Shown here one piece after another: positions 37,477 through 51,621 of a DNA stretch of 64,000 nt (its first letter is position 1; each line of letters begins with the position of its first letter). The position numbers and the translations under genes were made by a program. The stretch spans positions 1 to 64,000 of the forward strand of contig NZ_LIRJ01000092.1 of NCBI RefSeq assembly GCF_001419745.1, given 5' to 3'. The notes under the pieces were generated by a model. The model made no database searches and was not told where the DNA came from. It saw nothing but the letters and a program-made list of their open reading frames with translations. This stretch comes from Streptomyces silaceus. GTDB taxonomy: Bacteria > Actinomycetota > Actinomycetes > Streptomycetales > Streptomycetaceae.

Positions 37477-37755
37477 AACTCACGACCTCCTGTGGGGGGA
37501 TCGACCCGTCCGGTGTGGGGTCCCGACGGGCCGCAGGGCTTGCGCGGCACGGAGTTGCCACGCTGAAAAAGCCGCGTCCATGCCAATTGGCCTCGCCCAC
37601 TATCCCGATGCCTTCCGGTCGCACACAAGGTCTACTTCAGGACGTGCGCACGGCAACGGCCGTACGCCCCCGGCGCGTTGGGCGAGCAGGATCTGGCCAC
37701 GTCGGTTCCCGGTGCAAACACCGCGTGCAAGGGGACGGTCGCCGGCGGGTGAGGA

Positions 37756-38637
37756 CTAGTCCTGTCCGGTTCTCGACCCTCCGTGGGCGTTGTTCTCTCC
37801 GACTTCCGCGTTCGCCGCTCCGGAATCCGGCAGCTTCGCGGGCCCCGGAACCGCCCCGTCCGGCTGCTGCGGCAGGGCCTGCTGCGCCCGCTCCAGGAAG
37901 CGGAGCAGCTCCACGGGGAAGGGCAGCACGAGGGTGGAGTTCTTCTCGGCGGCGACGGCCACCACCGTCTGCAGAAGACGGAGCTGGAGCGCCGCCGGTT
38001 CCTCCGCCATGCCCTTGGCGGCCTCCGCGAGCTTCTTGGAGGCCTGGAGTTCGGCGTCGGCGTTGATGACCCGGGCCCGGCGCTCCCGGTCGGCCTCGGC
38101 CTGCCGCGCCATCGAGCGCTTCATGGTCTCCGGCAGCGAGACGTCCTTGATCTCGACCCGGTCGATCTGCACGCCCCAGCCGATGGCCGGGCTGTCGATC
38201 ATCAGCTCCAGGCCCTGGTTCAGCTTCTCCCGGTTGGACAGCAGATCGTCCAGGTCGCTCTTGCCGATGATCGAGCGCAGCGACGTCTGCGCCATCTGCG
38301 AGACCGCGAAGCGGTAGTCCTCGACCTGCATCACCGCGTCGGCCGGATCGATCACCTTGAAGTAGATGACGGCGTCCACCCGCACGGTGACGTTGTCGCG
38401 CGTGATGCCGTCCTGTGCGGGCACGGGCATCGTCACGATCTGCATGTTCACTTTGCGGAGCCGGTCGACCATGGGCACGATCATCGTGAACCCCGGCCCG
38501 CGCACCGCGCGTTGCAGCCGCCCGAGGCGCAGGATCACACCCCGCTCGTACTGCTTGATGACGCGCGCCGCCGCCATCACATAGACCGCTCCGACGGACC
38601 CGACGACCAGTCCCGCCGTCACCAGCTCCTCGACCAT
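37756..38637 (-). CDS. SPFH/band 7 (stomatin-like) membrane protein
   Basis: 293 aa. One N-terminal membrane helix (LVTAGLVVGSVGAVYVMAAARV) precedes a band-7 domain (VIKQYERGVILRLGRLQ, FTMIVPMVDRLRKVNMQI). A helical coiled-coil region follows (QAEADRERRARVINADAELQASKKLAEAAK) with a short Pro-rich tail. SPFH proteins scaffold membrane microdomains and often partner with NfeD or FtsH proteases; neither is adjacent. ATG 38637 follows GGGGGG. Sits between two secreted proteases. Confidence 0.92.
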   Translation of the reverse strand: MVEELVTAGLVVGSVGAVYVMAAARVIKQYERGVILRLGRLQRAVRGPGFTMIVPMVDRLRKVNMQIVTMPVPAQDGITRDNVTVRVDAVIYFKVIDPADAVMQVEDYRFAVSQMAQTSLRSIIGKSDLDDLLSNREKLNQGLELMIDSPAIGWGVQIDRVEIKDVSLPETMKRSMARQAEADRERRARVINADAELQASKKLAEAAKGMAEEPAALQLRLLQTVVAVAAEKNSTLVLPFPVELLRFLERAQQALPQQPDGAVPGPAKLPDSGAANAEVGENNAHGGSRTGQD

Positions 38638-38710
38638 GCCGGCCCCCCAGGGTCCGAATTGGGCGTGTTGGGCGTCCACTTCGAAGGTAGTCGCCCGCCC
38701 TGGACAGCGC

Positions 38711-38741
38711 GAGCCCCCGCCCGGAAGCCGGGCGGGGGCTC
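38711..38741 (-). terminator. 14-bp perfect hairpin downstream of the streptogrisin gene
   Basis: GAGCCCCCGCCCGG, loop AAG, and its reverse complement. It terminates the protease transcript before the SPFH gene. A second hairpin (GCCGGCCGGG/CCCGGCCGGC, 38752-38772) sits just beside it, closer to the protease stop. Confidence 0.8.
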
Positions 38742-38782
38742 ATGCCGCTGTGCCGGCCGGGACCCGGCCGGCGTGCGGTGTC

Positions 38783-39688
38783 TCAGTAGACGCTGACGTT
38801 GTACGCGCGCAGCGCCTCGGTGACCGGCTGGAAGAACGTCGTGCCGCCCGACGAGCAGTTGCCGCTGCCGCCGGAGGTCAGGCCGAGCGCCGTGGAACCG
38901 GAGTACAGCGGGCCGCCGCTGTCGCCGGGCTCGGCGCAGACCGTGGTCTTGATCATGCCGTAGACGACGTCGCCGCCGCCGTAGTTGACGGTCTGGTTGA
39001 GCGCGGTGACCCGGCCGCTGTGCGTACCGGTCGTCGAGCCGCGCCGGGTCACGTTCTGCCCGACGGTGGGGTCGGCGGCGCCCGTGATGTCCTGGCTGCC
39101 CACGGTGCCGGACTTGGTGACGGAGTTGTTCGTGTAGCGCACGATGCCGTAGTCGTTGGTCGGGAAGCTGGAGCCCGACGTGGTGCCGAGCACGGTGGTC
39201 TTCGCCGAGTTGGACCACCAGGTGCCCGCGCCGTCGGTGCAGTGGCCCGCGGTCAGGAAGTAGTAGGCGCCCGCGCTGTTGCGGACGTTGAAGCCGAGGG
39301 AACAGCGCCAGCTGTCGGCGTAGATGGCGTCGCCGCCGGAGATGTACTTCTGGAACTTCCCGGGCGTGCGCTGGATCTTCAGTGCGCCGGCGTTGGCCCC
39401 CGCCGCCTTCTTGAGCTTGGCGATCTCGGCCTTGGAGACCGTGCTGTCGGCGGTGACGACGAGTCGCTTGGTCTTCGGGTCGATGCCCCAGGCGGTGCCC
39501 GCGACATCGGCGCCGAGCACGGCGTCGTCGGCCTGCCGCAGCTGGGCCGCGCTGAACGTCGCCACGCTGTCCTGCGCGTTCGCCGCGGGCACGACGAGCG
39601 CTCCGGCGGCGACGAGACCAGTGGCCACGGCGAGCAGTCGGGTGCGTCTCGCGGTGTCGCTGTGGGGGATGGTGCGCTTGATCCTCAC
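38783..39688 (-). CDS. streptogrisin B-like secreted serine protease
   Basis: 301 aa: signal peptide (~1-38), pro-region (~39-115), and mature 186-aa enzyme starting ISGGDAIYA (Ile116). The mature part is close to S. griseus protease B as I remember it ([53 protein letters not shown]). The triad is His149, the Asp in NDYG, and the Ser in GDSGG. GTG 39688 follows GGGAGG. It degrades proteins outside the cell; such enzymes are often development-regulated. Confidence 0.94.
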
Positions 39689-39953: not shown

Positions 39954-40769
39954 TCAGCGGTCGAGAAGGTTCCGTTCTCCCGCCGCGATCTCCGTCGCCA
40001 GCGTGTTGCCGGGCGGCGGGAAGGGGCAGAGGAAGTGGTCGGCGAAGGCGCAGGGCGGCAGCAGCGCGCGGTTGAAGTCGACCGCGGTGCGGCCCTCGGC
40101 GTCGGGCGCGGCGGGCCGCAGGAAGCGGAACCGGTGACTGGAGACGCCACTGGTGCCGTCGGCGAAGACGGCCCACAGCGAACCGTCCGCCTCGACGGCC
40201 GCCTGGAGCGTGTGCTCGACTCCCCCGAGCCGGAAGGAGAGTTCACCGCCGAGGCCGAGGCCGCGCTCCTTGCCGTCCGCGTTGCCGACGGTGACGGTGC
40301 GCTTCTCGTCGTACGGGGTGAAGCGTCCGGGCACCGCCCAGCGCTCGTCGTACGCGGTGGCCTCGATGCCCTTGAAGGCGCGACGCGCGGCGGAGTCCGG
40401 GTCGAAGTCGCGCACCGCCCACAGGCCTTCGCGCCGGATGACGACGAGCCGGCGCGCGCCGAGGACGACGCGGGCCTCCTCGACGAGGAGGGTGTCCGGG
40501 CCGAGGCGGACCTCTCCGGTCAGGGGCAGGCCGTCGACGGTCAGGCCGTCGGCGGGCTCCGCGGTGAGGACGACCGCGTCGGGGGTCGCCGTCCACCGCC
40601 CGGGAATCCCCGGAAGGTGCCCGTCCGGGTGGTCGGCGAGCCAGTGGGTGCCCTTGAGGGCGAGTGAGCCGTAGGGCGCCGACTCCGTCGCCGTGCGCTC
40701 CTCGTGCCACTGCTTCCAGTCCTGCGCGGCGTCGGTGTCCGGGCCGGCGCCGTCGTTCTCGGTGCTCAT
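39954..40769 (-). CDS. DUF1684 protein
   Basis: 271 aa cytoplasmic protein with DUF1684 hallmarks: WKQWHEERTATESAPYGSLALKGTHWL at the N-terminus and DFNRALLPPCAFADHFLCPFPPPGNTL near the end. The family contains invariant Cys and His residues and is of unknown function. It starts 5 nt after the LLM monooxygenase gene, so it belongs to the operon. Linkage to the flavin monooxygenases suggests a role in handling the oxidised product; this is inference. Confidence 0.85.
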   Translation of the reverse strand: MSTENDGAGPDTDAAQDWKQWHEERTATESAPYGSLALKGTHWLADHPDGHLPGIPGRWTATPDAVVLTAEPADGLTVDGLPLTGEVRLGPDTLLVEEARVVLGARRLVVIRREGLWAVRDFDPDSAARRAFKGIEATAYDERWAVPGRFTPYDEKRTVTVGNADGKERGLGLGGELSFRLGGVEHTLQAAVEADGSLWAVFADGTSGVSSHRFRFLRPAAPDAEGRTAVDFNRALLPPCAFADHFLCPFPPPGNTLATEIAAGERNLLDR

Positions 40770-40774
40770 GGTGA

Positions 40775-42076
40775 TCAGTCCTTCCCTGCGGGCTCACGCA
40801 GCCCGAGATGTGAGCGCAGCGTCGTGCCCTCGTATTCCGTGCGGTACACGCCGCGCTCCTGGAGCAGCGGCACCACCTTCTCGACGAACTCGTCGAGCCC
40901 GCCGGGGGTCAGGTGCGGCACGAGGATGAAGCCGTCGGCGGCCTCGGTGCGCACGGACTCCGCGAGTTCGGCGGCGACCGCGTCCGGGGTGCCGACGAAG
41001 GACTGGCGGGCCGTGGTCTCGACGACGGTCTGGCGGATGGAGAGCCCCTTGGCCTCGGACAGCGCGCGCCACTTGGCGGCGACGGCGAAGGGGTCGGCGA
41101 TCCGGACCCGGCCCTGGACCAGCTCCGAGTCCGGGACCGGGTCGATGTCGGGCAGCGGCCCGTCCGGGTCGTACGCGGACAGGTCCACGCCCCACACCTG
41201 CTCCAGGGCGAGGAGCGCGTTCTGCGGGGACACCTGCGCGCGGCGGATCCCGGCGGCCTTCTCCTGGGCCTCGGCCGCGGTGTCGCCGAGGACGTAGGTG
41301 ACCCCGGGCATGATCTTCAGGTCGTCGGCGGACCGCCCGTACGCGGCGAGGCGGCCCTTGACGTCGGCGTAGAAGGCGCGGCCCGCCTCGGGCGTGCCGT
41401 GCCGGGTGAAGATGACGTCGGCGGCCGACGCGGCGAACTCCCGGCCCTCCGAGGAGTCCCCCGCCTGGATCACGACGGGGTGGCCCTGCGGGGAACGCGG
41501 CACGGGGAACTCGCCCTCGATCGCGAAGTGCTCGCCGTGGTGCGTGAAGCCGCGCTGCCGTCCGTCGGGCGTCCAGGAGTCCCACAGCTCGCGCGCGGTG
41601 GCGAGGAACTCGGCGGCGCGGGTGTAACGGTCGGCGCGGTCGAGGTAGCCGCCGCGCCGGAAGTTCTCGCCGGTGAAGGCGTCGGAGGTGGTGACGACGT
41701 TCCAGGCGGCGCGGCCCGCGCTGAGGTGGTCGAGCGAGGCGAACCTGCGGGCCAGCTCGAAGGGTTCGTTGAAGGTCGCGTTGACGGTGCCCGCGAGGCC
41801 GAGCCGCTCGGTCACGGCGGCGAGCGCGGTCAGGACGGTGAGCGACTCGGGCCGCCCGACGACGTCCAGGTCGTGGATGCGGCCCTTGTGCTCGCGCAGC
41901 CGCAGCCCCTCGGCGAGGAAGAAGAAGTCGAACAGGCCGCGTTCGGCGGTGCGGGCGAGGTGCGTGAAGGACGCGAAGTCGATGTGGGAGCCGGACCCCG
42001 GGTCGGACCAGACGGTGGTGTTGTTGACGCCGGGGAAGTGGGCGGCCAGGTGCACCTGTTTGGGTCGCTGTGTCAT
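40775..42076 (-). CDS. LLM-class FMN-dependent monooxygenase (NtaA/SnaA/DszA family)
   Basis: 433 aa, the long form of bacterial luciferase-like monooxygenases. Features are HLAAHFPGVNNTTVW, HIDFASFTHLARTAERGLFDFFFLAEGL, AWNVVTTSDAFTGENFRRGG (FMN site region) and HPVVIQAGDS. The family uses reduced FMN from a separate reductase to oxidise C-N or C-S bonds of NTA, EDTA, dibenzothiophene sulfone or alkyl sulfones. ATG 42076 overlaps the next upstream gene's stop (ATGA). The ABC genes point to organosulfur breakdown, though amine substrates remain possible. Confidence 0.9.
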   Translation of the reverse strand: MTQRPKQVHLAAHFPGVNNTTVWSDPGSGSHIDFASFTHLARTAERGLFDFFFLAEGLRLREHKGRIHDLDVVGRPESLTVLTALAAVTERLGLAGTVNATFNEPFELARRFASLDHLSAGRAAWNVVTTSDAFTGENFRRGGYLDRADRYTRAAEFLATARELWDSWTPDGRQRGFTHHGEHFAIEGEFPVPRSPQGHPVVIQAGDSSEGREFAASAADVIFTRHGTPEAGRAFYADVKGRLAAYGRSADDLKIMPGVTYVLGDTAAEAQEKAAGIRRAQVSPQNALLALEQVWGVDLSAYDPDGPLPDIDPVPDSELVQGRVRIADPFAVAAKWRALSEAKGLSIRQTVVETTARQSFVGTPDAVAAELAESVRTEAADGFILVPHLTPGGLDEFVEKVVPLLQERGVYRTEYEGTTLRSHLGLREPAGKD

Positions 42077-43155
42077 GAGGACTCCCCCGCGAGCGCGGCG
42101 TATCGGTTGACGGGCCGGGCGAGCCCCAGGTGCTCCCTGAGCGTGCTGCCCGGGTAGAAGGTGCGGAACAGCCCGCGGTGCTGGAGCAGCGCGACGGTGC
42201 CGTTGACGAGCCGCTCCAGGTCGCGGCGCGGTTCGACGGGCGTGAGGTGGAAGCCGTCGACGGCTCCCGCGCCGTGCCAGGCGGCGATCAGTTCGGCCAG
42301 GTCGACGGGCCCGCCCCGGTAGGAGGGCCCCTCGGCGGTGGGCAGCGGTCCCCCGCCGTGCCCCGGTTCGGCGGCGCACTCGCCGCCGCCGAGGTCGACG
42401 ACGAGGGCGGCGAACACCCGCAGCGTCCGCGGGTCGCGCCCGTACCGCGCGGCGAGGCCCCGCAGTTCGGCGCGCGCGGCGTCGGCCCGGTCGGCGGAGG
42501 CGACGCGCACCAGGGCGACGTCCGCGTACCGGGCGGCGGTCTCGCGGGCCTGCGGGGCGGTCGCGTCGACGACGACCACGGGGTGGCCCTGCGGCGGCCG
42601 GGGCACGATGGAGGGCCCGCGCACCGAGAAGTCACGCCCCTGGAAGTCGACGTAGTGCAGCTTGTCCCGGTCGATGAAGCGGCCGGTCGCCACGTCCCGT
42701 ATCTCCGCGTCGTCCTCCCAGCTGTCCCACAGCCGCCGGGCCACGTCGGCGACCTCGCCGGCCTCGCGCCACAGCTCCTCGCGGGGCGCCGCGCGGCGCC
42801 GCCCGAAGAGCCGGGCCTCGGCCTCGGTCGCGGACACGTCGACGCCCCAGCCGGCCCGGCCGTGGCTGACCCAGTCGAGGGTCGCCAGGGAGGCCTGCAC
42901 GTGGAACGGCTCGGTGTGCGTGGTCGTGACGGTCGGCACGAGGCCGACGCGGCCGGTGCGGGGCGCGATCCGCGCGGCCACGCCGAGCGCGTCGAGCCCG
43001 GCCCGCGCGAAGGAGTCGCCCAGCGTCACGAAGTCCAGGGCCCCCTGCTCGGCGAGGAGCGCGAGCTCGGCGTAGGGAGCGGCTTCGTAGGTCTCGGGCA
43101 GGTCGATGGCGGCGGCGAGGTGGAGCGGGCCGCGCCCGGTGGGTGCGGTGGTCAT
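42073..43155 (-). CDS. second LLM-class FMN-dependent monooxygenase
   Basis: 360 aa with the same fold as its neighbour but shorter and divergent: LHLAAAIDLPETYEAAPYAELALLAEQGALDFVTLGDS, GWGVDVSATEAEARLFGRRRA, HPVVVVDATAPQARETAARYADVALV and the C-terminal FRTFYPGSTLREHLGL shared with its partner's end. The pair could act in sequence on one substrate or be specialised. ATG 43155. Only 28 nt separates it from the substrate-binding gene upstream. Confidence 0.88.
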   Translation of the reverse strand: MTTAPTGRGPLHLAAAIDLPETYEAAPYAELALLAEQGALDFVTLGDSFARAGLDALGVAARIAPRTGRVGLVPTVTTTHTEPFHVQASLATLDWVSHGRAGWGVDVSATEAEARLFGRRRAAPREELWREAGEVADVARRLWDSWEDDAEIRDVATGRFIDRDKLHYVDFQGRDFSVRGPSIVPRPPQGHPVVVVDATAPQARETAARYADVALVRVASADRADAARAELRGLAARYGRDPRTLRVFAALVVDLGGGECAAEPGHGGGPLPTAEGPSYRGGPVDLAELIAAWHGAGAVDGFHLTPVEPRRDLERLVNGTVALLQHRGLFRTFYPGSTLREHLGLARPVNRYAALAGESS

Positions 43156-43183
43156 CGGCTGAACCTTTCTGCTGAGGGCACGG

Positions 43184-44158
43184 CTACGGCTTGGGCAGGC
43201 CCGGCGGATTGATCTCGGACTTCTTCACGGCCTCGCCGGACAGCCCCCACCGCTTGAGGACCTTCGCGTAACTGCCGTCCTTGATCGCGTGGTCGATCGC
43301 CGCGGCGTAGGCGTCGACGAGCCCGCTCCCCTTCTTCGTGGTCGCGGCGATCTCCCCCTGGAGCGAGTCGCCCCCGCCCGAGAGCGATCCCGCGACCTCG
43401 CTCTGGCCCGCGGAGGCCACGTGGTACGAGACCGCGGGGCTCGGCCCGAGGTAGGCGTCGATGCGCCCGGACTGGAGGGCGAGGTAGTAGTCGGAGTCCT
43501 TCTGGAAGTACTTGATGTCGACCGGCTCGCGCCCGGCCTTCTCGTTGCGCCTGCTCCAGTCGACGAGGATCTTCTCCTGGTTGGTGCCGGAGGAGACCGC
43601 GACGGCCTTGCCGGCCACGTCCTTCGGCCCCTTCACCGTCCAGCCGGCGCCCTTCTTCACCTCGAAGGCGATGTTGTCGAGCCGGTAGGTCGCGAAGTCG
43701 TACTTCTCCTTGCGCTCCTCGGTCACCGTGACGTTGCCGAAGACACCGTCGAACTTCCCGCTGTCCAGGCCGACGAAGAGGTTCTCCCAGGAGACCTCCT
43801 CGAACACCGGCTTGAGGCCGAGGGTGTCGGCGACGAGGACCGCGAGGTCGACCTCGGAGCCGATGCGGGTCTTGTCGTCGGTGGCGTAGAAGCCGAGCGG
43901 CGCGGTCGAGTCGGCGCCGCCGCCGAGCCGCAGCGTGCCGCGCTTTCTCACGTCCTCGGGCACGAGGGCGGCGATCGAGTCGACCTTCTTGCCGCGCACG
44001 CGGTTCTGGTCGGGTCCGATGTTGATGGAGCCGACCTTCTTGACGCCGGGGCGGCCGCCGCCGGTCGCGGCGTCGCTGTCGCCGCCGCAGGCGCTGAGCA
44101 GGGGCGCGGCGGCCAGGGCGGCGACGGCGAAGGTGAGGGCGGTGCGTCGGGATGGCAT
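43184..44158 (-). CDS. ABC substrate-binding lipoprotein (amino-acid/sulfur family 3)
   Basis: 324 aa. Lipoprotein signal peptide with lipobox LLSACGG. The SBP_bac_3 fold is shown by RKRGTLRLGGGADSTAPLGFYATDDKTRIGSEVDLAVLVADTLGLK and DGVFGNVTVTEERKEKYDFATY. This group binds polar amino acids, cystine or taurine-like compounds. AGGAGCC precedes ATG 44158. It sits beside its ATPase and permease genes and resembles the divergent binding protein at 48995, giving the cassette two receptors. Confidence 0.9.
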   Translation of the reverse strand: MPSRRTALTFAVAALAAAPLLSACGGDSDAATGGGRPGVKKVGSINIGPDQNRVRGKKVDSIAALVPEDVRKRGTLRLGGGADSTAPLGFYATDDKTRIGSEVDLAVLVADTLGLKPVFEEVSWENLFVGLDSGKFDGVFGNVTVTEERKEKYDFATYRLDNIAFEVKKGAGWTVKGPKDVAGKAVAVSSGTNQEKILVDWSRRNEKAGREPVDIKYFQKDSDYYLALQSGRIDAYLGPSPAVSYHVASAGQSEVAGSLSGGGDSLQGEIAATTKKGSGLVDAYAAAIDHAIKDGSYAKVLKRWGLSGEAVKKSEINPPGLPKP

Positions 44159-44168
44159 GCGGGGGCTC

Positions 44169-44981
44169 CTAGAGGACCTTGGAGAGGAAGGCGCGGGTGC
44201 GCTCGTGCCGGGGGGCGTCGAGTACGTCGGCGGGGGCGCCCCGCTCGACGACGCGGCCGTCGTCCATGAAGACGACGGTGTCGGCCACCTCGCGGGCGAA
44301 GCCGATCTCATGGGTGACGACGATCATCGTGGTGCCCTGGCGCGCCAGGTCCTTGATGACGTCGAGGACCTCGCCGACCAGCTCCGGGTCGAGCGCGGAG
44401 GTCGGCTCGTCGAAGAGGAGCAGCTTCGGCTCCAGGGCGAGGGCGCGGGCGATGGCGACGCGCTGCTGCTGTCCGCCGGAGAGCTGCTTGGGGTAGGCGT
44501 CGGCCTTGTCGGCGAGCCCGACCCTCGCGAGCAGCGCCTCGGCGCTCGCCACGGCCTGCCTGCGGGGCCGCTTCAGCGCGGAGACCGGCGCCTCGACGAT
44601 GTTCTCCAGGACCGTCAGATGCGGGAAGAGGTTGAAGTTCTGGAAGACGAAGCCGATGTGGGTGCGCTGCTTGAGGACGTCCCGCTCGCGCAGCTCGTAC
44701 AGCTTGCCCGCCCGTCCCCCACCACCGCCCTTGCCGGGGGCCCTTCGGGCCGACGCCTTGTCTCCACGCCGGTAGCCGACGAGCTCGCCGTCGACGCTGA
44801 CCCAGCCCCCGTCGACCTTCTCCAGGTGGTTGATGGTGCGCAGCAGCGTGGACTTGCCGGAGCCGGAGGGGCCGAGGACGACGGTGACCTCGCCCGCGGC
44901 GACCTCCAGGTCGACTCCCTTCAGCACCTCCAGGGAGCCGAAGGACTTGCGGACGGAACGGAGTTCGACCATGGCGCTCAT
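44169..44981 (-). CDS. amino-acid-type ABC transporter ATP-binding protein
   Basis: 270 aa. Walker A GPSGSGKST, Q-loop FQNFNLFPH, signature LSGGQQQR, Walker B LLLFDEPTS and the H-loop THE. The family is the polar amino acid (GlnQ/HisP) group. An unusual Gly/Arg-rich insertion (GDKASARRAPGKGGGGGRAGK) lies between Walker A and the Q-loop. ATG 44981 overlaps the permease stop (ATGA). Confidence 0.92.
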   Translation of the reverse strand: MSAMVELRSVRKSFGSLEVLKGVDLEVAAGEVTVVLGPSGSGKSTLLRTINHLEKVDGGWVSVDGELVGYRRGDKASARRAPGKGGGGGRAGKLYELRERDVLKQRTHIGFVFQNFNLFPHLTVLENIVEAPVSALKRPRRQAVASAEALLARVGLADKADAYPKQLSGGQQQRVAIARALALEPKLLLFDEPTSALDPELVGEVLDVIKDLARQGTTMIVVTHEIGFAREVADTVVFMDDGRVVERGAPADVLDAPRHERTRAFLSKVL

Positions 44982-45871
44982 CGCGTGGCCCCCTTGGAGA
45001 AGTGACGTTCGACGTAGTGCTGGAGGACGGAGAGCGCGCTGGTCAGGAGGATGTACCAGACGGTGGCGACCATCAGGAGCGGCACGACCCGGCCGTTGCG
45101 GCCGTAGATGACCTGCACTTGGTAGAAGAGTTCGCCGATCGCCATGACGGAGACGATCGAGGTGCCCTTGAAGAGGGAGATGATCTCGTTGGCCGCGTTG
45201 GGCAGGATCGACCGCATCGCCTGCGGGAGCACGATCCTGCGCACCTGCCGCAGTTTGGGGATGCCGAGCGCGGCGGCGGCCTCCAGCTGCCCGCTGTCGA
45301 CGGCCGCGACACCGGCGCGCACGATCTCCGCGGCGTACGCGGCCTGGTGCAGTGCCAGACCGAGGACGGCCGCGCTCATCGCGCCGACGAGCCCCATGGT
45401 GTCGAAGGAGAAGAAGCCGGGCCCGAACGGGATGCCGAACTGCAGCTCCTTGTAGAGGTAGGCGAGGTTGAACCAGAACAGCAGCTGCACGATGAGCGGG
45501 ATCGAGCGGAACGCCCAGATGTAGGCGAAGGCCACCGACTTCAGGAACGGGCTCGCCGAGAGCCGCATGAAGGCGAGGACGACACCGAGCGCGAAGCCGA
45601 GCGCCGTGCCGTAGAAGGTGAGCTGGAGGGTGATCCAGACCGCCTTGAGGATGACGTCGGCGGTGAAGAACTCCGCGAACACCTCCCACTCCCAGGCGGG
45701 GTTGGTGACGAGTCCGTGCGCGAACTGCGCGATCAGGACGGCGGTCGCGGCGACGGCGGCCCACCGCCAGGGGTGGCGTACGGGTACGACCGTGAACCCG
45801 TCGAGGTCGTCGGCCGCCGGCGGCGCGGCCCGGTCGCCCTTGCTGACGGGCGGATCACTGGTCAGGGACAT
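44978..45871 (-). CDS. amino-acid-type ABC transporter permease
   Basis: 297 aa. Five or six membrane helices and a HisM/GlnP-type permease domain with the EAA-like loop EAAAALGIPKLRQVRRIVLPQAMRSILP. ATG 45871 lies just inside the end of the FAD-protein gene (17-nt overlap). It pairs with the second permease at 47633 or works as a homodimer. Confidence 0.92.
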   Translation of the reverse strand: MSLTSDPPVSKGDRAAPPAADDLDGFTVVPVRHPWRWAAVAATAVLIAQFAHGLVTNPAWEWEVFAEFFTADVILKAVWITLQLTFYGTALGFALGVVLAFMRLSASPFLKSVAFAYIWAFRSIPLIVQLLFWFNLAYLYKELQFGIPFGPGFFSFDTMGLVGAMSAAVLGLALHQAAYAAEIVRAGVAAVDSGQLEAAAALGIPKLRQVRRIVLPQAMRSILPNAANEIISLFKGTSIVSVMAIGELFYQVQVIYGRNGRVVPLLMVATVWYILLTSALSVLQHYVERHFSKGATR

Positions 45872-47636
45872 GGGTTCCTCGGGTCGTGGAGGTGCGCAGG
45901 AAGTCGAGGACGGCGCGTGCGGTGGCGTCGTTCTGCCGGAAGGTGGGGCTGTTGGTCCGCGGCCGGGTGAACGCACCGGCGCCGCGCGCGTCGGTGTGCG
46001 GGCCGAGCGCGAAGCGGCGCGGATGCGGCACGCCCGCCCGGTCGAGGATCCGTCCGTCGGCGGGGTCGACGGCGAGGAGTCCGGCCGGCGTCTCGCCGAC
46101 GCCCTCGGCATGCAGGGCGCGCAGCAGCGGGTCGCGGGCGCGGGCCAGGGTGGGCTGCGGCAGCCGGGCCTCGACGAGCGCGCGGGCCTCGGTGACGTGG
46201 CCGGGCAGGGTGGGGCTCTGGGCGCGGAACACCCCGTCCTCGGCGCTCACCCGGACGTCCGCGCCGAGGAACCGCACGATCCCGGCGCGCGAGAGGGCGA
46301 GGAGCTGCCGCAGCCGGGGGCCGGGCGGGCCGGACGCGAGGTAGCTGAAGAAGCCGTGCCACCAGTCGCCCGGGTCGCCGAGCCGCACCAACTGGCCGTA
46401 GACGGAGAGGAGTCCGAGGAACACGGCGAGGTCGGGGCTGTGCCCGGGGTCGTGGCGGCGGGCGAGGTCGTCGGTGATGTAGCCGCGCAGCCCGTCCTGC
46501 AGCGCCTCGTAGGAGGTGTGGCCCACCCCGGAGAGGGGGTGGTCGAGGGCGGTGAGGTCGAGCCGGTCGGCGGGGTCGGGCACGGCGGAGGCGACGAGGG
46601 CGTCCAGTTCGGGGCTGCCGGGCGCGCAGGCCTCGTACTTCTCGTCGAAGTCCGCCCAGGCGATGCGGGTGCGCCCGGGGTGGGCGGTGAAGAGACGGTG
46701 GTAGTGGGCGAAGCCGAGTTCCTTCTCGATGAGCGGCCACACGTCGCGCCGGAAGTCGTGTCCGCCGGGCCGGGCGAGGAGCGCGTCGACCTCGGCGGGG
46801 CCCAGGTAGCGGGGCAGCGGCGGCCGTTCGCCCGTCCAGTCGTAGCCGATCTTCGAGTGGTAGGGGACGCCGCGCCGCGAGCCGACGTGGAGGACGGGCT
46901 CGCGCCCCGAGGGGTGGTAGGTGTCGCCCTCATACCGTCCGCCGCGGCCCTCGGTGAGCAGCACCATCAGGTCGACGAAGGCGAGGCCGAAGCCGCGCAC
47001 GAGGACGGGTTCGCCGGGCGCGAGGCGCGAGAGGTCGCTGTCGGCGGTGAAGTCCGGCGGCAGGTGCACCAGCCCGTTGCGCTCGGCGTACGCGGCCAAC
47101 TCGGTCTGCTCGTCGTCGAGTTCGGCGTCCAGGTGCCCCTGGAGCAGGAGGACGAGGTCGGCGGCTATCGGTTCGTCGAGGCCTTCGACGAACACGTCCT
47201 GACGGGTGTCGTGCCCACCGGTGACGCGCAGCGCCCTGCGCGGGTGGTGGTGGACGGTGATGCCCTCGGGCAGGGCGGCCACGGCCTGTTCGTACACCCA
47301 GCGCATGTAGGCGCTCTGCTCGTGGCGGCTGAGGAAGTCCCGGCCGTCGCGTCCGCTCCACTCGTGCAGCGCGGGGCCCGGCACGACCGGGCCCGTCAGC
47401 TCCACCGTCTCGTCGGTGAACATGGTGACGTCCTGGGCCTGCGAGTTCATCCAGAGCAGCGGCGACTGGTCGGCCCGCCAGACGCGCCCGCCGCCCGGCG
47501 GGTGCGGGTCGACGAGGTGGATGTCGAGGCCGTCGACGTCCGAACCCTCGTACAGCTCGGGCGCGTTGGCGGCGATGCGTTCCAGGATGCCGGTGCCGCG
47601 CGGGCCCGCTCCCACGAACACCAGGGAGCGCCTCAT
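45855..47636 (-). CDS. FAD/NAD(P)-binding oxidoreductase
   Basis: 593 aa. A Rossmann start LVFVGAGPRGTGILERI and the NAD_binding_9 type block PPGGGRVWR, LLWMNSQAQDVTMFTD near residues 45-75. Such proteins are FAD-dependent hydroxylases or reductases of loosely defined function, seen in sulfur and siderophore loci. It is placed between two permease genes with overlaps on both sides, so it is part of the operon. It may supply a hydroxylation or reducing step for the LLM monooxygenases. ATG 47636. Confidence 0.85.
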   Translation of the reverse strand: MRRSLVFVGAGPRGTGILERIAANAPELYEGSDVDGLDIHLVDPHPPGGGRVWRADQSPLLWMNSQAQDVTMFTDETVELTGPVVPGPALHEWSGRDGRDFLSRHEQSAYMRWVYEQAVAALPEGITVHHHPRRALRVTGGHDTRQDVFVEGLDEPIAADLVLLLQGHLDAELDDEQTELAAYAERNGLVHLPPDFTADSDLSRLAPGEPVLVRGFGLAFVDLMVLLTEGRGGRYEGDTYHPSGREPVLHVGSRRGVPYHSKIGYDWTGERPPLPRYLGPAEVDALLARPGGHDFRRDVWPLIEKELGFAHYHRLFTAHPGRTRIAWADFDEKYEACAPGSPELDALVASAVPDPADRLDLTALDHPLSGVGHTSYEALQDGLRGYITDDLARRHDPGHSPDLAVFLGLLSVYGQLVRLGDPGDWWHGFFSYLASGPPGPRLRQLLALSRAGIVRFLGADVRVSAEDGVFRAQSPTLPGHVTEARALVEARLPQPTLARARDPLLRALHAEGVGETPAGLLAVDPADGRILDRAGVPHPRRFALGPHTDARGAGAFTRPRTNSPTFRQNDATARAVLDFLRTSTTRGTHVPDQ

Positions 47637-48508
47637 CGGGCACGCTCCGAACCGCGGGCGTAGTGCCGCTCGACGTAGTACTGGCCGACGCTGAGCACCG
47701 AGGTGACCACGACGTACCAGATGGTGGCGACCATCAGCAGCGGGATGACCTGGTAGGTGCGGTGGTAGACGAGCTGCACGGAGTAGAGCAGGTCCTGCAC
47801 GGCGATGACGGAGACGATCGAGGTGCCCTTGAGCGTGCCGATGAGCATGTTCCCGGCCGGCGGCACGATGGACCGCATGGCCTGCGGCAGCACGATCCGC
47901 CGCCACCTGCGCCACCGTCCGAGGCCGAGCGACTGCGCGGCCTCGATCTGCCCGCGGTCGACGGAGAGGATTCCGCCGCGCACCACCTCGGCGGCGTACG
48001 CGGCCTCGTGCAGCGTGAGGCCGATGACGGCGATGGTGACGGGTCCGAGCAGATCGACCGTCTTCACGCCGAACAGCTGCGGGTAGAGCGCCCCGATGTT
48101 GAACCAGAACAGCAGCTGCACCAGGATCGGCATCGACCTGAAGAACCAGATGTATCCCCAACTGACCGCTCTCAGAACGGGGTTGGCGGACAGGCGGCCG
48201 ATGGCGAGCAGCGCACCGAGCGCGAAGCCGAGCGCCATGACGACGGCGGTCAGCCAGAGCGTGAGCCACAGGCCGCGCAGGACGGACGCCGTGGTGAAGT
48301 AGTCGGCGACGACGTCCCACTGGAACGCCCCGTTGCGGACGACGGACGTGGCGGCCAGCGCGAGCAGCACCAGGACGACGGCGGCCGCCGTCCACTGGCC
48401 CAGGCGCGGCCGGGGCACAATGCGCGGGGTGTCGTCGGGCGCGGCGGGGCCGGCGGGATCCGGGGACGGCGGAGAGGTCTCGACTTTGGCGAGGGTGTCG
48501 GAGGACAT
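47633..48508 (-). CDS. second amino-acid-type ABC transporter permease
   Basis: 291 aa. An N-terminal cytoplasmic Pro-rich tail is followed by a HisM/GlnP-type permease domain (RGLWLTLWLTAVVMALGFALGALLAIGRLS, EAAQSLGLGRWRRWRRIVLPQAMRSIVPP). It is the first gene of the operon running to 39954. It resembles the permease at 44978 over its whole length, so a duplication or heterodimer is likely. A GGAG ribosome site precedes ATG 48508. Confidence 0.92.
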   Translation of the reverse strand: MSSDTLAKVETSPPSPDPAGPAAPDDTPRIVPRPRLGQWTAAAVVLVLLALAATSVVRNGAFQWDVVADYFTTASVLRGLWLTLWLTAVVMALGFALGALLAIGRLSANPVLRAVSWGYIWFFRSMPILVQLLFWFNIGALYPQLFGVKTVDLLGPVTIAVIGLTLHEAAYAAEVVRGGILSVDRGQIEAAQSLGLGRWRRWRRIVLPQAMRSIVPPAGNMLIGTLKGTSIVSVIAVQDLLYSVQLVYHRTYQVIPLLMVATIWYVVVTSVLSVGQYYVERHYARGSERAR

Positions 48509-48590
48509 GCGGAAGGCTCCGTGGATGCAGAAGCTCGAACACGGGTGGTGCCTTCACATGGACCGAGCCCCTCAGCACGATCCGCCCCCG

Positions 48591-48621
48591 AGATTACGGG
48601 GCGCTTCACCTGAACTGTCAA
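48591..48621 (-). promoter_or_regulatory. putative promoter of the permease-first operon
   Basis: Read on the minus strand: TTGACA (48616-48621) and TAATCT (48591-48596) with a long 19-nt spacer. The -35 is perfect and the spacing is suboptimal. About 80 nt to the ATG at 48508. Confidence 0.4.
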
Positions 48622-48657
48622 GGGTGTCCAGGATATGAGCGTTACGTCTCACGGCAG

Positions 48658-48686
48658 TTGACGCGGAAACGGATGCCTGCTCCACT
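48658..48686 (+). promoter_or_regulatory. putative promoter giving a leaderless leader-peptide mRNA
   Basis: TTGACG (48658-48663), 17-nt spacer, TCCACT (48681-48686). The expected start, 7 nt after the -10, is position 48693, exactly the A of the leader-peptide ATG. Confidence 0.45.
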
Positions 48687-48692
48687 TGGCCC

Positions 48693-48764
48693 ATGCATCC
48701 GCAGCAGTGGCTGGTCACGCGCTCCCACATCGACTTCGGTCGAGTGTGGTCGGCGTCTTGTTGA
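48693..48764 (+). CDS. 23-aa cysteine-type leader peptide
   Basis: The peptide ends TRSHIDFGRVWSASC. This matches the Streptomyces 'putative leader peptide' pattern (basic residue, H-[IV]-D, R, then a terminal Cys) found before sulfur-assimilation genes. There is no ribosome site; the predicted transcription start coincides with the ATG, so it is likely leaderless. Ribosome pausing at the Cys codon (759-761 of 48 kb) when Cys-tRNA is low would control the downstream binding protein (48995). Confidence 0.75.
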   Translation: MHPQQWLVTRSHIDFGRVWSASC

Positions 48765-48905
48765 TGTCCTCCTGAGCCGACCCCCTGCGATCGCCGTGCC
48801 CTGAGCCCCGTCGGGCCCCCTGGGGGATTCGGCTTCTGCGCGCCTTCCTGTGTTCTCGCCGCCATCGCCCCCGCGCGGGCGGCGACCCCGCCTTCACACG
48901 CGTAC

Positions 48906-48934
48906 GCCACCGCTCCCCCGTCGCGAGCGGTGGC
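48906..48934 (+). promoter_or_regulatory. candidate attenuator/anti-attenuator hairpin
   Basis: GCCACCGCTC (48906-48915), 9-nt loop, GAGCGGTGGC (48925-48934): a perfect 10-bp stem between the leader peptide and the binding-protein gene. A folding competitor would be expected nearer the leader stop. Confidence 0.5.
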
Positions 48935-48994
48935 ACACCCCTCCCCTCGCACGTCCGCTTCGCCCTGCCCTGCCGAGCTGGAGAACGTCACGCC

Positions 48995-49954
48995 ATGAGC
49001 ACGCCCTCGCAGTCCCGCCGTATCCCGGCGGCCTTCGCCCTGATCACCGCCGCCACCCTCGCGCTGACCGCGTGCGGCTCCGGTGGCGCCGCGGGCACCG
49101 CGGGCGGTGCGGCCCCCGCCGGCAAGAGCGCCAGGATCCCGACCGCCGACGTGGTGTCCTCCGTCAAGAAGAGCCCGGCCGCGGCCGGCCTGCTGCCCGC
49201 GGACGTGCGCGAGCGCGGCACCCTCGACGTCGCCGCCTCCGTCGGCGGCACCCCGCCCGGCGCGCTCTACCTGGAGGACGGCAGGACGATCGTCGGCCAG
49301 GACATCGACTTCGCGGACGCCGTGGCCAAGGTCCTCGGCCTGAAGCTGAAGCGGGAGGCCGCGAGCTTCGAGGCGATCCTGCCGGCCCTGGGCAGCGGCA
49401 AGTACGACCTGGGCACGGGCAACTTCGGGGTGACCGACGAGCGCCGCAGGACCATCGACTTCGTGACGTACATCAACGACGGCCAGGGCTTCGCCGTCCG
49501 CAAGGACAGCAAGCTGAAGAAGGTCACCGACTTCGAGCAGCTGTGCGGACTGAACGTGGCGACCGGCGCGGGCACCACCTTCGAGGTCACGCTGGAGGAC
49601 AACAAGCACGTCTGCGAGGAGGCGGGCAAGAAGCCCTACAGCGTGAAGACGTACGCCGAGCAGGGCGCGATCTGGGCCGCGCTGCAGCAGGGCCGCGCGG
49701 ACGCGGTGATGTCCACGATCAACGGCCTTCGCTACGCCGTGAAGCAGCAGGAGGGCCTGAAGTTCCTCGGCGAGTACCACCGGCTCGACGTCGGCTTCGC
49801 CTTCAAGAAGGGCACGAAGCTGGCCCCCGCCTTCCGGGCCGCGGTCGACCAGCTGATCAAGGACGGGACGTACGACCGCATCCTGAAGAAGTGGGGGACG
49901 CAGGGTTCGGCGATCGAGAAGTCGCAGATCTCCCCGCCGGAGATCAAGGACTGA
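48995..49954 (+). CDS. ABC substrate-binding lipoprotein, second receptor of the cassette
   Basis: 319 aa. Lipobox LALTACGSG. SBP_bac_3 fold with VRERGTLDVAASVGGTPPGALYLEDGRTIVGQDIDFADAVAKVLGLKLKRE and DLGTGNFGVTDERRRTIDFVTY. Two cysteines (LCGLNV, HVCEEAG) are in disulfide-compatible positions. It is the only gene after the leader peptide, divergent from the permease/monooxygenase operon, and would share its permease and ATPase. Ligand probably a sulfur-containing compound such as cystine or a sulfonate. Confidence 0.9.
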   Translation: MSTPSQSRRIPAAFALITAATLALTACGSGGAAGTAGGAAPAGKSARIPTADVVSSVKKSPAAAGLLPADVRERGTLDVAASVGGTPPGALYLEDGRTIVGQDIDFADAVAKVLGLKLKREAASFEAILPALGSGKYDLGTGNFGVTDERRRTIDFVTYINDGQGFAVRKDSKLKKVTDFEQLCGLNVATGAGTTFEVTLEDNKHVCEEAGKKPYSVKTYAEQGAIWAALQQGRADAVMSTINGLRYAVKQQEGLKFLGEYHRLDVGFAFKKGTKLAPAFRAAVDQLIKDGTYDRILKKWGTQGSAIEKSQISPPEIKD

Positions 49955-49996: not shown

Positions 49997-51331
49997 CTAG
50001 AGGCCGCAGTCGCAGCAGGAGCAGCACTCGCAGATGCCGCAGCAGCCGCAGTCGCAGTCGCAGTTCGTGCAGCAGCCCTCGCGCTTCTTGCGGGACCAGG
50101 GGCCCTCGTAGTGGTCGGCGCAGCACATCTTGCAGGTGCAGCACAGGCCGATGGCGACGGCGCACCCGGCCCAGAAGCCGCGCTTGCCGGGCTTCGGCGG
50201 CTGCGGCCCGAAGTCGGGACCGCCGCCGAAGCCGCCGGGCCCCCCGGAGCCACCGGAGCCGCCCGGACCGCCGGGCCCCTGGGGCCCGGCCGGACCACCG
50301 GGCACACCGCCTCCGTACGGATTGCCGCCTCCGTACGGATTCTGCGGGCCGTACGGACCACTGGAGGGGTGTCCGTACGGCCCGCCCTGCTGCGGGGCGC
50401 CGTACGCGCCGCCCTGCTGCGGCGGTCCGAAGGAGCCGTCCTGATGCGCCGTCACCTGATGTGTGTGCCCGCAGCCGTCGGTCCCGAAGGCCCGGTCGAC
50501 CGACCGGCCCAGCTCGTGCGCGAGCAGCATGTGGGCCAGCTTGCCGTCGGTGAACTCGGCGTCCCGCAGTGCGAGGCGGATGCCGTGCAGCGCGTCGTCG
50601 GCGAGGCGCCGCGCCTCGGTCAGGGACGTGCCGGTCGCGGTGAGCGGGTTCCACGCGCCCGACGCGGCGTCGGCCTCCTTGTCCTCCACGGCGTCGAGCA
50701 GGTGCGCGAGGCGGCCGAAGAGCCGGCCGGCCTCGGCGAGCGGCTGCGCGTTGCCGGGGCGGCCGGCGAGCACGGCGGTGTGCGCGAAGGCCGCGGCGGT
50801 CGCGGTCTCGGTCGGCTCGGTGACCGCGAGCAGCGAGGTGCCGGGGCCCGCCAAGGCCTCGATGCCGGCCTGCCGTTCGACGGCGTCGACCAGGACCGCC
50901 GTGTCGAAGCCCACATCGGCGCCGGTCCGCGCGCCCGCCTTGTCCCAGCTGCGGGCCACCCGCCGGGCCGCGACGGCCACTGGCCTGCGCGCCAGGAGCC
51001 CGTCCCCGTCGACGACATGGTCGCGGACCTTCGCCGAGGCGAGGACCAGCGAGACGGCCGCGGCGAGCCGCGCGCCCTCGCCCCGCGCCACGGACGCCGT
51101 CCGCATCCCGCGCAGCGGACAGGGCCCCGCGGTGCGCCGCCAGCCGGTCGAGCGCTCGGCCTGAGCCTCCGTCAGAACCGAGATGATGAGCCCGTCGTAG
51201 TTGGTGACGACCCGGGCGAACTGCCCGTGGTCACCGCGCAGCGCGAGACAGAGCCCGCACAGATGGGCCATCCACTGCGTCTTGAGGCCCTCCCCGAGAC
51301 GATGGCTGCAGGGCCTGACGATTCCGAACAA
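49997..51331 (-). CDS. DUF5685 protein with Cys-rich C-terminus
   Basis: 444 aa. The N-terminal DUF5685 region starts FGIVRPCSHRLGEGLKTQWMAHLCGLCLALRGDHG (CxxC-type), followed by ~250 helical residues. A Pro/Gly/Gln-rich low-complexity stretch (~295-390) and a tail with 19 cysteines in the last ~56 residues follow, many as CC or CxC. The cysteine density suggests metal binding or heavy disulfide or palmitoyl-like modification. TTG 51331 is used because GGGGGAG precedes it by 5 nt. Function unknown. Confidence 0.8.
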   Translation of the reverse strand: MFGIVRPCSHRLGEGLKTQWMAHLCGLCLALRGDHGQFARVVTNYDGLIISVLTEAQAERSTGWRRTAGPCPLRGMRTASVARGEGARLAAAVSLVLASAKVRDHVVDGDGLLARRPVAVAARRVARSWDKAGARTGADVGFDTAVLVDAVERQAGIEALAGPGTSLLAVTEPTETATAAAFAHTAVLAGRPGNAQPLAEAGRLFGRLAHLLDAVEDKEADAASGAWNPLTATGTSLTEARRLADDALHGIRLALRDAEFTDGKLAHMLLAHELGRSVDRAFGTDGCGHTHQVTAHQDGSFGPPQQGGAYGAPQQGGPYGHPSSGPYGPQNPYGGGNPYGGGVPGGPAGPQGPGGPGGSGGSGGPGGFGGGPDFGPQPPKPGKRGFWAGCAVAIGLCCTCKMCCADHYEGPWSRKKREGCCTNCDCDCGCCGICECCSCCDCGL

Positions 51332-51621
51332 GACGACTCCCCCGAGAAGCCCGAAGCGATCAACCCGGGCATCGTAGCGAGGGCCCCGTTCACCCGGACG
51401 CACCGACCGTCACCCATACGCCGTGAAGAATCATATTTCACTCTCCGTCAGCAGCCGTACACGGCAAGACCCTTGAAGCGCAACGTGCGTCGGCGTGTTG
51501 ACTCTGCACCAGTACCGTCACGAAAACCCCGCGCGGCGACTATCCACTTGGCGCACCATCCGCATCATGGACGACGATAGGGATGCGGAACTCAGGGAAA
51601 CCGCGGTGAGAGGAGGCGTCC

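Follow-up and report, generated by a model that had tools for sequence, protein, structure and literature searches.

What does a gene cluster do in which a flavin adenine dinucleotide (FAD) protein stands between two transporter permeases, and which signal governs it? The question arises from a 64,000-nucleotide stretch of Streptomyces silaceus DNA (contig NZ_LIRJ01000092.1, positions 1 to 64,000; the window below). Eight leftward genes code there for permease P1, the FAD protein, permease P2, an ATPase of the ATP-binding cassette (ABC) type, the binding lipoprotein SBP1, the luciferase-like monooxygenase (LLM) proteins LLM_A and LLM_B, and a DUF1684 protein. Back to back with them lie a short leader peptide and a second binding lipoprotein, SBP2 (Table 1). 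We lean towards a Streptomyces version of S-substituted-cysteine salvage, i.e., the cysteine-repressed use of S-substituted (N-acetyl)cysteine. Support for sulfur salvage is good as regards regulon and gene content but does not extend to the chemistry.

Counts of modules, and the presence of the leader given per locus, refer to 64 loci with more than 21 kb of sequence, taken from the best 80 named-genome relatives. Because the FAD protein served as query for these loci, all of them contain it by selection; they are also related by descent. Loci L039-L078, from 40 genomes, were also chosen around the FAD gene. Papers are cited by PubMed Central (PMC) number, and the statements taken from them are those of the excerpts available.

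Leader peptide and its regulon

The leader open reading frame (ORF) translates as MHPQQWLVTRSHIDFGRVWSASC and has one Cys codon, immediately before the stop. When compared with NCBIfam NF042936 (Ms4527A Cys-rich leader), it scored 23.5 bits (E 3e-5) against a curated cut-off of 45. The leader is present in 64/64 relatives of the locus and is thus not a chance ORF; its conserved core is HIDFGRVWS. The position of SBP2 on the divergent strand behind a Cys leader agrees with the original prediction. According to the sequence and an alignment of 18 loci, the promoter-like element of the leader ends six bases 5' of the ATG, and the leader mRNA is predicted to be leaderless, with a start site at or next to the ATG.

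In the genome of the window, a core-related pattern was found at two sites, the window leader and C290, and at none in the reversed control. The C290 leader directly precedes an SsuD-like LLM gene, named c11 here. The 24-base core was then sought in 40 whole genomes, namely 32 of the 40 source genomes of L039-L078 and eight without a FAD match. It was matched 39 times in 30 genomes, with 0 matches in the reversed control. When assigned by coordinates, 18 sites are upstream of c11 (two of them, in G141, before copies matched over residues 128-364 only), 7 precede SBP2, 3 precede LLM_A-LLM_B, and another 11 are back to back with the FAD gene; none of the 39 lies away from pathway loci. The leader core marks a regulon of pathway loci, and 28/39 sites precede likely sulfur-acquisition genes. 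A similar distribution was obtained from the deduplicated fetched loci (43 sites: 19 for c11, 9 for SBP2, 4 for LLM_A, and 11 before none of them, all opposite FAD), a set drawn around pathway genes, so the 39-site scan is the unbiased figure. Among the distinct c11 copies of at least 70% identity, 19/25 have a leader within 600 bp.

The 11 orphan leaders sit opposite the FAD gene where SBP2 is missing (L039, L041-L043, L046, L048-L051, L054, and L055). Their peptide and promoters are intact, and they come from several genera.

The glycine codon of the core is GGT in 39/39 matches although the pattern permitted C or G, which suggests a constraint on the nucleic acid besides the peptide; the C290 copy has GGC. 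The best models of c11 are alkanesulfonate and dimethylsulfone monooxygenases (SsuD/SfnG-like), all below cut-offs, and the best PDB matches of its ortholog in L067 are alkanesulfonate monooxygenases.

Leaderless Cys-rich leader peptides of the Ms4527A type were reportedly described from mycobacteria by Canestrari et al. in 2020. As far as the excerpt on them goes, they have in common with the window leader a leaderless short ORF, Cys near its end, and sulfur genes that follow. The window leader differs in its score below the NF042936 cut-off, its single Cys codon, and its own core. Like them, it would respond to cysteine.

FAD protein

The sole PDB relative of the FAD protein at E 1 or better is the L-aspartate N-hydroxylase 8cp2 from Streptomyces sp. 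V2 (E 3.4e-90). Residues 4-577 align with 8cp2 residues 4-596, i.e., over the full length and through both the FAD and the nicotinamide adenine dinucleotide phosphate (NADP) domains. By homology, the protein represents a branch, as yet uncharacterised, of the aspartate N-hydroxylase family; it is the distinctive piece of the cluster. It is predicted to be a class B monooxygenase, and its substrate is unlikely to be aspartate.

The statement on the substrate comes from the pocket, with residue roles taken from the excerpt of PMC10404684. In the multiple alignment, Arg13, Trp51, and Asn62 are conserved in the window protein as in loci L039-L069 and L071, and Arg577 and Arg593 are also kept in the window protein. 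The 8cp2 residues Arg266, Arg276, Arg409, Arg412, Asn413, and Arg416 of the aspartate/sulfate site are replaced by K, P, L, Y, G, and V, respectively, and by K, P, S, G, Q, and R in the pairwise alignment. The alignment of this helix is ambiguous by one or two residues, and the pairwise version sets the conserved window Arg418 against Arg416. Five of the six losses are therefore firm and Arg416 is uncertain, and the pocket still differs from that of the aspartate enzyme. No Arg was found at 276, 409, 412, or 416 in L039-L069 and L071 in the multiple alignment, while the distant homolog L078, used as a positive control, has R, R, R, R, D, and R at the six positions. The aspartate-contacting Arg13 and Arg577 remain and most residues of the side-chain carboxylate/sulfate site are changed, which would suit an amino acid whose side chain is not acidic. 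Structure prediction of the FAD protein, from 12 sequences, gave a mean predicted local distance difference test score (pLDDT) of 50 and was not used.

Two functions were rejected. The pocket residues speak against an aspartate N-hydroxylase proper. A flavin reductase is made unlikely by the single-component nature of the only PDB relative and by the lack of any reductase family match, and so is the earlier idea that the FAD protein could supply reduced flavin to the LLM enzymes; its homolog is a single-component, NADPH-dependent N-hydroxylase. According to the mechanism of the family, the enzyme should use FAD and NADPH unaided and form a C4a-hydroperoxide. Its oxygenation target may be sulfur or nitrogen, and flavin-containing monooxygenases of the same class oxygenate both (PMC7347517).

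In comparison with the L-aspartate N-hydroxylases FzmM and CreE (PMC10404684), the window protein is homologous over its full length but has a changed pocket, no adjoining nitrosuccinate lyase, and the context of a sulfur regulon. A nitrosuccinate lyase (CreD/FzmL, PcaB-like) was not found among the nine genes of the window cluster. Homologs in loci L074-L076 are 40-42% identical, and their pocket residues are not those of the window branch; the homolog on an S. camelliae plasmid is absent from the pocket alignment. Homologs from Parageobacillus and from an Arthrobacter plasmid are outside LLM clusters. On the Parageobacillus plasmid (L286:7989-12237), the FAD homolog (30.7% identity) shares its gene run with a nitronate monooxygenase and an MFS transporter, and these neighbours hint at N-oxidation chemistry outside actinomycetes.

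Some loci have no FAD gene. L153 and L155 keep P1 opposite leader-c11-SBP2-ATPase, and L152 has a fuller set with GNAT, P2, SBP1, a flavin mononucleotide (FMN) reductase, LLM_A, and LLM_B. As P1 is kept opposite the leader in all three, FAD is an optional part. The earlier claim that it was inserted between the permeases is consistent with these loci, where FAD may have been either gained or lost.

LLM pair and DUF1684

With the NtaA/DmoA model TIGR03860 (cut-off 279.7), LLM_B scored 405.3 bits and LLM_A 233.6, so that the predicted family holds for LLM_B, whereas LLM_A stays below the cut-off. The best PDB match of LLM_B is YtnJ (1.5e-81), which we take to be the protein now called CmoJ. The latter cleaves N-acetyl-S-alkylcysteine sulfoxides (PMC10863075).

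Mutation of Val137, Arg159, or Tyr160 abolishes the activity of BdsA (PMC5819316). These positions were compared in 83 LLM_A and 70 LLM_B sequences, sets that include paralogs and some strains twice. Arg159 is Leu in 74/83 LLM_A and Arg in 63/70 LLM_B; Tyr160 is Trp in 61/83 and Phe in 8/83 LLM_A and Tyr in 64/70 LLM_B; Val137 is Asp or Glu in 61/83 LLM_A and Val in 66/70 LLM_B. LLM_A aligns to BdsA in two separate stretches, and the pairwise alignment puts Glu and Leu at 159/160 rather than Leu and Trp; the Arg-Tyr pair is absent either way. As LLM_A lost FMN-binding residues and LLM_B retained them, one heterodimer is suspected, and the two proteins look like a pair with a single flavin site, in the manner of LuxAB and NtfO1-NtfO2. 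The original prediction of two flavin monooxygenases would thus stand for LLM_B, and LLM_A is more probably its non-flavin partner.

A similar pair of adjacent genes, one short and one FMN-competent, is NtfO1-NtfO2 (PDB 7e36), in which a partner without the lid joins the FMN-binding partner (PMC8027225). That pair acts on a polyketide; for the window pair, the complex is a prediction. LLM_B is intact in 40/64 loci, and LLM_A is intact in 39 of these 40 and split into overlapping pieces in the remaining one. Against strict pairing, LLM_A covers at least 85% in 13/24 loci without intact LLM_B, several of them shortened ORFs of about 300 amino acids (L180, L184, and L207). At L199:11945-13753, LLM_A and DUF1684 form one ORF of 602 amino acids and LLM_B is missing, apparently a natural deletion fusion.

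Six PF01613 reductases are encoded in the genome of the window, all on other contigs. The predicted structure of the DUF1684 protein (mean pLDDT 79.9) matched, at E 0.001 or better, six haloarchaeal protein chains only; all are uncharacterised, so no function was assigned, although the protein may have a role in the pathway.

Transporter parts

P1 and SBP2 are both present in 39/64 loci, both absent in 25/64, and never split (Fisher 2e-18). The same applies to P2 and SBP1, with both present in 7/64 and both absent in 57/64 (Fisher 2e-9), while P1 and P2 are not associated (p 0.23). The loci share descent and these p values overstate their independence. Such strict pairing suggests one dedicated permease per receptor, and the system is likely to consist of two receptor-permease halves on one common ATPase.

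The best NCBIfam models of the ATPase and P2 are cystine models of the TcyJLN group, with scores of 312 (cut-off 406) and 144 (cut-off 300), respectively; for SBP1, a cystine model is second best (106, cut-off 312). The transporter parts fit families for polar amino acids, not SsuABC or TauABC.

Relatives and distribution

At least 584 encoded relatives were found in the named-genome scan. The best 80 of them are all labelled Streptomyces, with the exception of Kitasatospora aureofaciens and one Actinobacteria bacterium, and among the matches listed the closest relative is S. atriruber with 88% identity. In an even draw from the phylum, 6/296 genomes carry a FAD match with an E value of at most 1e-90, of which five belong to the genus of the window (its own genome counted) and one to another family. 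Some FAD relative at E 0.001 is present in 128/150 genomes of the family of the window, many of them from a different branch with about 40% identity. LLM_B orthologs (at least 74% identity) were found in 14/32 genomes with a FAD protein at least 50% identical by tblastn and in 0/28 others (20 without a FAD match and 8 with a more distant one).

The association of FAD, transporter, and LLM genes extends beyond Streptomyces. In L253, from another family, FAD faces P2-ATPase-SBP1-DUF1684-LLM_A-LLM_B. In L254, GNAT and FAD form an operon of overlapping genes that faces P2-ATPase-SBP1 and an LLM gene. In L158, from another genus, the orthologous FAD-P1 pair faces leader-SsuD-like LLM-GNAT-SBP2-P2-ATPase-SBP1-LLM_A-LLM_B. 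GNAT is present in L158, L152, L167, and L254, and in relatives the LLM genes have FMN or flavin reductases as neighbours.

Paralogous LLM_A2-LLM_B2 clusters occur at L165:7418-12919 and at similar loci among L152-L169 and L255. They include a CE1758-like LLM, an MsnO8-type (TIGR03558) LLM, and a flavin reductase, and LLM_A2 in L165, L168, and L255 is preceded by a different Cys leader (RRHIDLQR..ALC).

Proposed pathway and alternatives

In the pathway that we favour, cysteine shortage would stall the ribosome at the terminal Cys codon of the leader and raise SBP2 expression; c11, under the same leader elsewhere in the genome, would rise alongside. The back-to-back operon P1-FAD-P2-ATPase-SBP1-LLM_A-LLM_B-DUF1684 would provide the remaining functions. 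SBP2-P1 and SBP1-P2, with one ATPase, would take up a conjugate of cysteine or of N-acetylcysteine (mercapturate), which the FAD enzyme, as a self-contained NADPH-dependent class B monooxygenase, would oxygenate, most likely at sulfur. This step would equal that of CmoO in Bacillus. The LLM_A-LLM_B heterodimer, with FMN on LLM_B alone and its reduced form FMNH2 from an unlinked reductase, would then cleave the C-S bond and free (N-acetyl)cysteine for reuse. The leader regulon, the cystine-like scores of the ATPase and P2 (below cut-offs), and the proximity of LLM_B to YtnJ all speak for a dedicated uptake and oxidation of organosulfur under cysteine-type control, as originally predicted.

The scm, ytn, and yha clusters of Bacillus carry an amino-acid ABC transporter, and the combination of an LLM monooxygenase with a transporter of this type, which characterises S-alkylcysteine salvage, is found in the window cluster. 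Unlike the Bacillus clusters, it adds an aspartate-N-hydroxylase-like FAD enzyme, an LLM subunit without FMN residues, and DUF1684, and its control is proposed to act through a Cys leader instead of a repressor, which in Bacillus is CymR. Common to it and to the B. subtilis clusters scm (yxe), ytn (Cmo), and yha is the logic of oxidative C-S cleavage with an LLM-type monooxygenase (PMC12757645, PMC10863075). The Bacillus clusters have an acetyltransferase, a monooxygenase, and a deacetylase (PMC12757645). Bacillus-like parts are present in relatives of the window, namely GNAT and flavin reductase, with acetyltransferase, LLM, and transporter together in L158 and L152. The mycothiol S-conjugate amidase Mca yields N-acetylcysteine conjugates in actinomycetes (PMC4267739). 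It is encoded in the genome of the window (494 bits, cut-off 277), and thus a cluster without an acetyltransferase could still get an N-acetylated substrate. As a general precedent, an NtaA-type protein labelled ScmK and cystine-transporter-like proteins are in the sulfur-protein table for Rhodococcus on dibenzothiophene, where enrichment of cystine transport proteins is reported (PMC8557817). Among the papers listed from the open-licence PMC literature, none dealt with the cluster, the leader core in Streptomyces, or the FAD branch, which is weak evidence.

Several observations weigh against the favoured pathway. Characterised enzymes closest to the FAD protein oxidise nitrogen instead of sulfur in the excerpt of PMC10404684. 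The CreE-type homolog on the S. camelliae plasmid (36% identity) stands beside a PcaB-like lyase, and a nitronate monooxygenase is near the Parageobacillus homolog. Six loci with lost or broken LLM genes (L039, L042, L047, L050, L051, and L055) retain the FAD gene; FAD was the criterion by which they were selected, and an LLM_B homolog is present elsewhere in each of their genomes. No pathway gene is directly downstream of 11/39 leaders, 6/25 SsuD-like c11 copies have no leader within 600 bp, and the window leader itself has one Cys codon and does not reach the NF042936 cut-off. Every ABC part is below the cystine cut-offs, the best model of P1 is an ectoine permease, and SBP2 scores best with the StpK7 and Lys/Arg/Orn models. 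A GNAT, an M20 deacetylase, and a CmoO-type (TIGR03558) LLM are absent from the genes of the window cluster; two M20 proteins above the TIGR01891 cut-off, either of which could serve as deacetylase, are encoded on other contigs of the genome.

The nitrogen chemistry of the relatives could mean that the salvage is the same but that the FAD enzyme hydroxylates the amino nitrogen of the sulfur amino acid taken up, in the way its relatives treat aspartate. The hydroxylamine, oxime, or nitroso intermediate would eliminate the sulfur substituent or be acetylated by the GNAT found with it in relatives, and the freed thiol or sulfonate would go to the LLM enzymes. We regard this as possible but doubtful. 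The homology to aspartate N-hydroxylase with Arg13, Trp51, and Asn62 kept is in line with it, as are other homologs that adjoin a nitrosuccinate-lyase-like gene or have a nitronate monooxygenase nearby and the overlap of GNAT and FAD in one operon of L254, an arrangement resembled by hydroxylamine acetylation in siderophore synthesis. Against it stand at least five of six changed residues at the aspartate/sulfate site and the lack of a CreD/FzmL-like lyase among the nine genes; we also know of no route of sulfur acquisition that uses N-oxidation, which counts against it too. Use of sulfonates or other organosulfur compounds that are not amino acids, with desulfonation by LLM_B and the SsuD-like LLM and with, for example, cysteate- or taurine-like zwitterions taken up by the transporter, seems rather improbable. 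The co-regulated c11 is SsuD/SfnG-like by its models (below cut-offs) and by the PDB matches of the L067 ortholog, but the transporter belongs to polar-amino-acid families and not to SsuABC or TauABC, and the GNAT of the relatives has no evident role in desulfonation. Least credible, and in our view very improbable, is an accessory to a natural product or to detoxification, in which leader control would be incidental and the FAD protein would produce an N-oxidised building block. The homologs in L074-L076 and on the S. camelliae plasmid have biosynthesis-type neighbours, for example KAS III-like, type III polyketide synthase, or condensation-domain genes, but those of L074-L076 have other pocket residues than the window branch, 64/64 loci of the window branch have the leader, and no identified flanking gene at 36-53 kb is biosynthetic.

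For the salvage of S-substituted (N-acetyl)cysteine, a more specific version can be put forward tentatively. A FAD branch recruited to sulfur nutrition would oxygenate the S-substituted (N-acetyl)cysteine, possibly at nitrogen, with sulfur eliminated independently of pyridoxal 5'-phosphate, and a one-flavin LLM heterodimer would follow, all within one cysteine-leader regulon.

Layout of the locus and neighbouring sequences

Order, strand, and spacing of the eight tightly packed leftward genes (48508-39954) agree with the original prediction, and the Pfam families are borne out for all nine genes. P1 and FAD overlap by 4 bp, FAD and P2 by 17 bp, P2 and ATPase by 4 bp, and LLM_A and LLM_B by 4 bp; otherwise, gaps are short.

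Table 1. Genes and sequence elements of the cluster in the window.
Feature	Position	Strand	Remarks
P1, amino-acid-type ABC permease (PF00528)	47633-48508	-	opens the leftward operon
FAD protein (PF13454), predicted class B flavin monooxygenase, aspartate-N-hydroxylase relative	45855-47636	-	
P2, amino-acid-type ABC permease	44978-45871	-	top NCBIfam model cystine permease, below cut-off
ABC ATPase	44169-44981	-	top NCBIfam model TcyN (L-cystine), below cut-off
SBP1, binding lipoprotein (PF00497), lipobox LSAC	43184-44158	-	partner of P2
LLM_A, 360 amino acids, short LLM subunit without FMN-binding residues	42073-43155	-	
LLM_B, 433 amino acids, NtaA/DmoA-family FMN monooxygenase	40775-42076	-	closest solved structure YtnJ
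DUF1684 protein, closes the operon	39954-40769	-	Pfam
SBP2, second binding lipoprotein (PF00497)	48995-49954	+	divergent; partner of P1
Leader peptide ORF, 23 amino acids, Cys-ending	48693-48764	+	ORF list, NCBIfam, alignment
Promoter-like TTGACA N19 TAATCT for the leftward operon	48591-48621	-	sequence; kept in relatives (18-locus alignment)
Imperfect 16-bp palindrome TGAGCGTTACGTCTCA between both promoters	48636-48651	.	possible operator
Promoter-like TTGACG N17 TCCACT for the leader	48658-48686	+	sequence; 18-locus alignment

Half-sites of the palindrome TGAGCGTTACGTCTCA are kept in most of the 18 aligned loci. As an operator of the regulon it was rejected: with two mismatches allowed, 10 matches were found against 7 in the reversed control, which shows no regulon. 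The 5' region of P1 (48509-48575, minus strand) has a conserved GTGAAGGC...CCGTG...CACGGAGCCTTC that could fold over the ribosome site of the P1/FAD mRNA. RNAalifold, run on the 18 aligned loci without L047 and L055 (where the motif is not shown), gave 9 pairs, none with a compensatory change, and the hairpin is unproven. An Rfam scan of the window at gathering thresholds gave no match.

Convergent with the adjoining SBP2, a gene at 49997-51403 (minus strand) codes for a protein whose C-terminus, CTNCDCDCGCCGICECCSCCDC, is extremely rich in cysteine; genes of this type are recurrent neighbours (cluster c12, 12/40 loci). On the other side, at 36397-39688 (minus strand), an SPFH/band 7-like protein (37756-38679) is flanked by two alpha-lytic-protease-like secreted proteins, families assigned through relatives in clusters c6 and c14.

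Biological significance

The trapping of toxic electrophiles and antibiotics by mycothiol leads to N-acetylcysteine conjugates in actinomycetes, and the recovery of cysteine from mycothiol-derived conjugates is, to our knowledge, largely open. The cluster supplies named candidate enzymes for this recovery. By homology, its FAD enzyme is an unstudied relative of enzymes that make nitro-compounds for antibiotics. Relatives of nitrosuccinate-forming enzymes, which the papers cited treat under natural-product pathways, are found here in what appears to be ordinary nutrition. The changed substrate pocket of the FAD enzyme is a directly testable feature, and the leader motif offers a genome-wide handle on the regulon.

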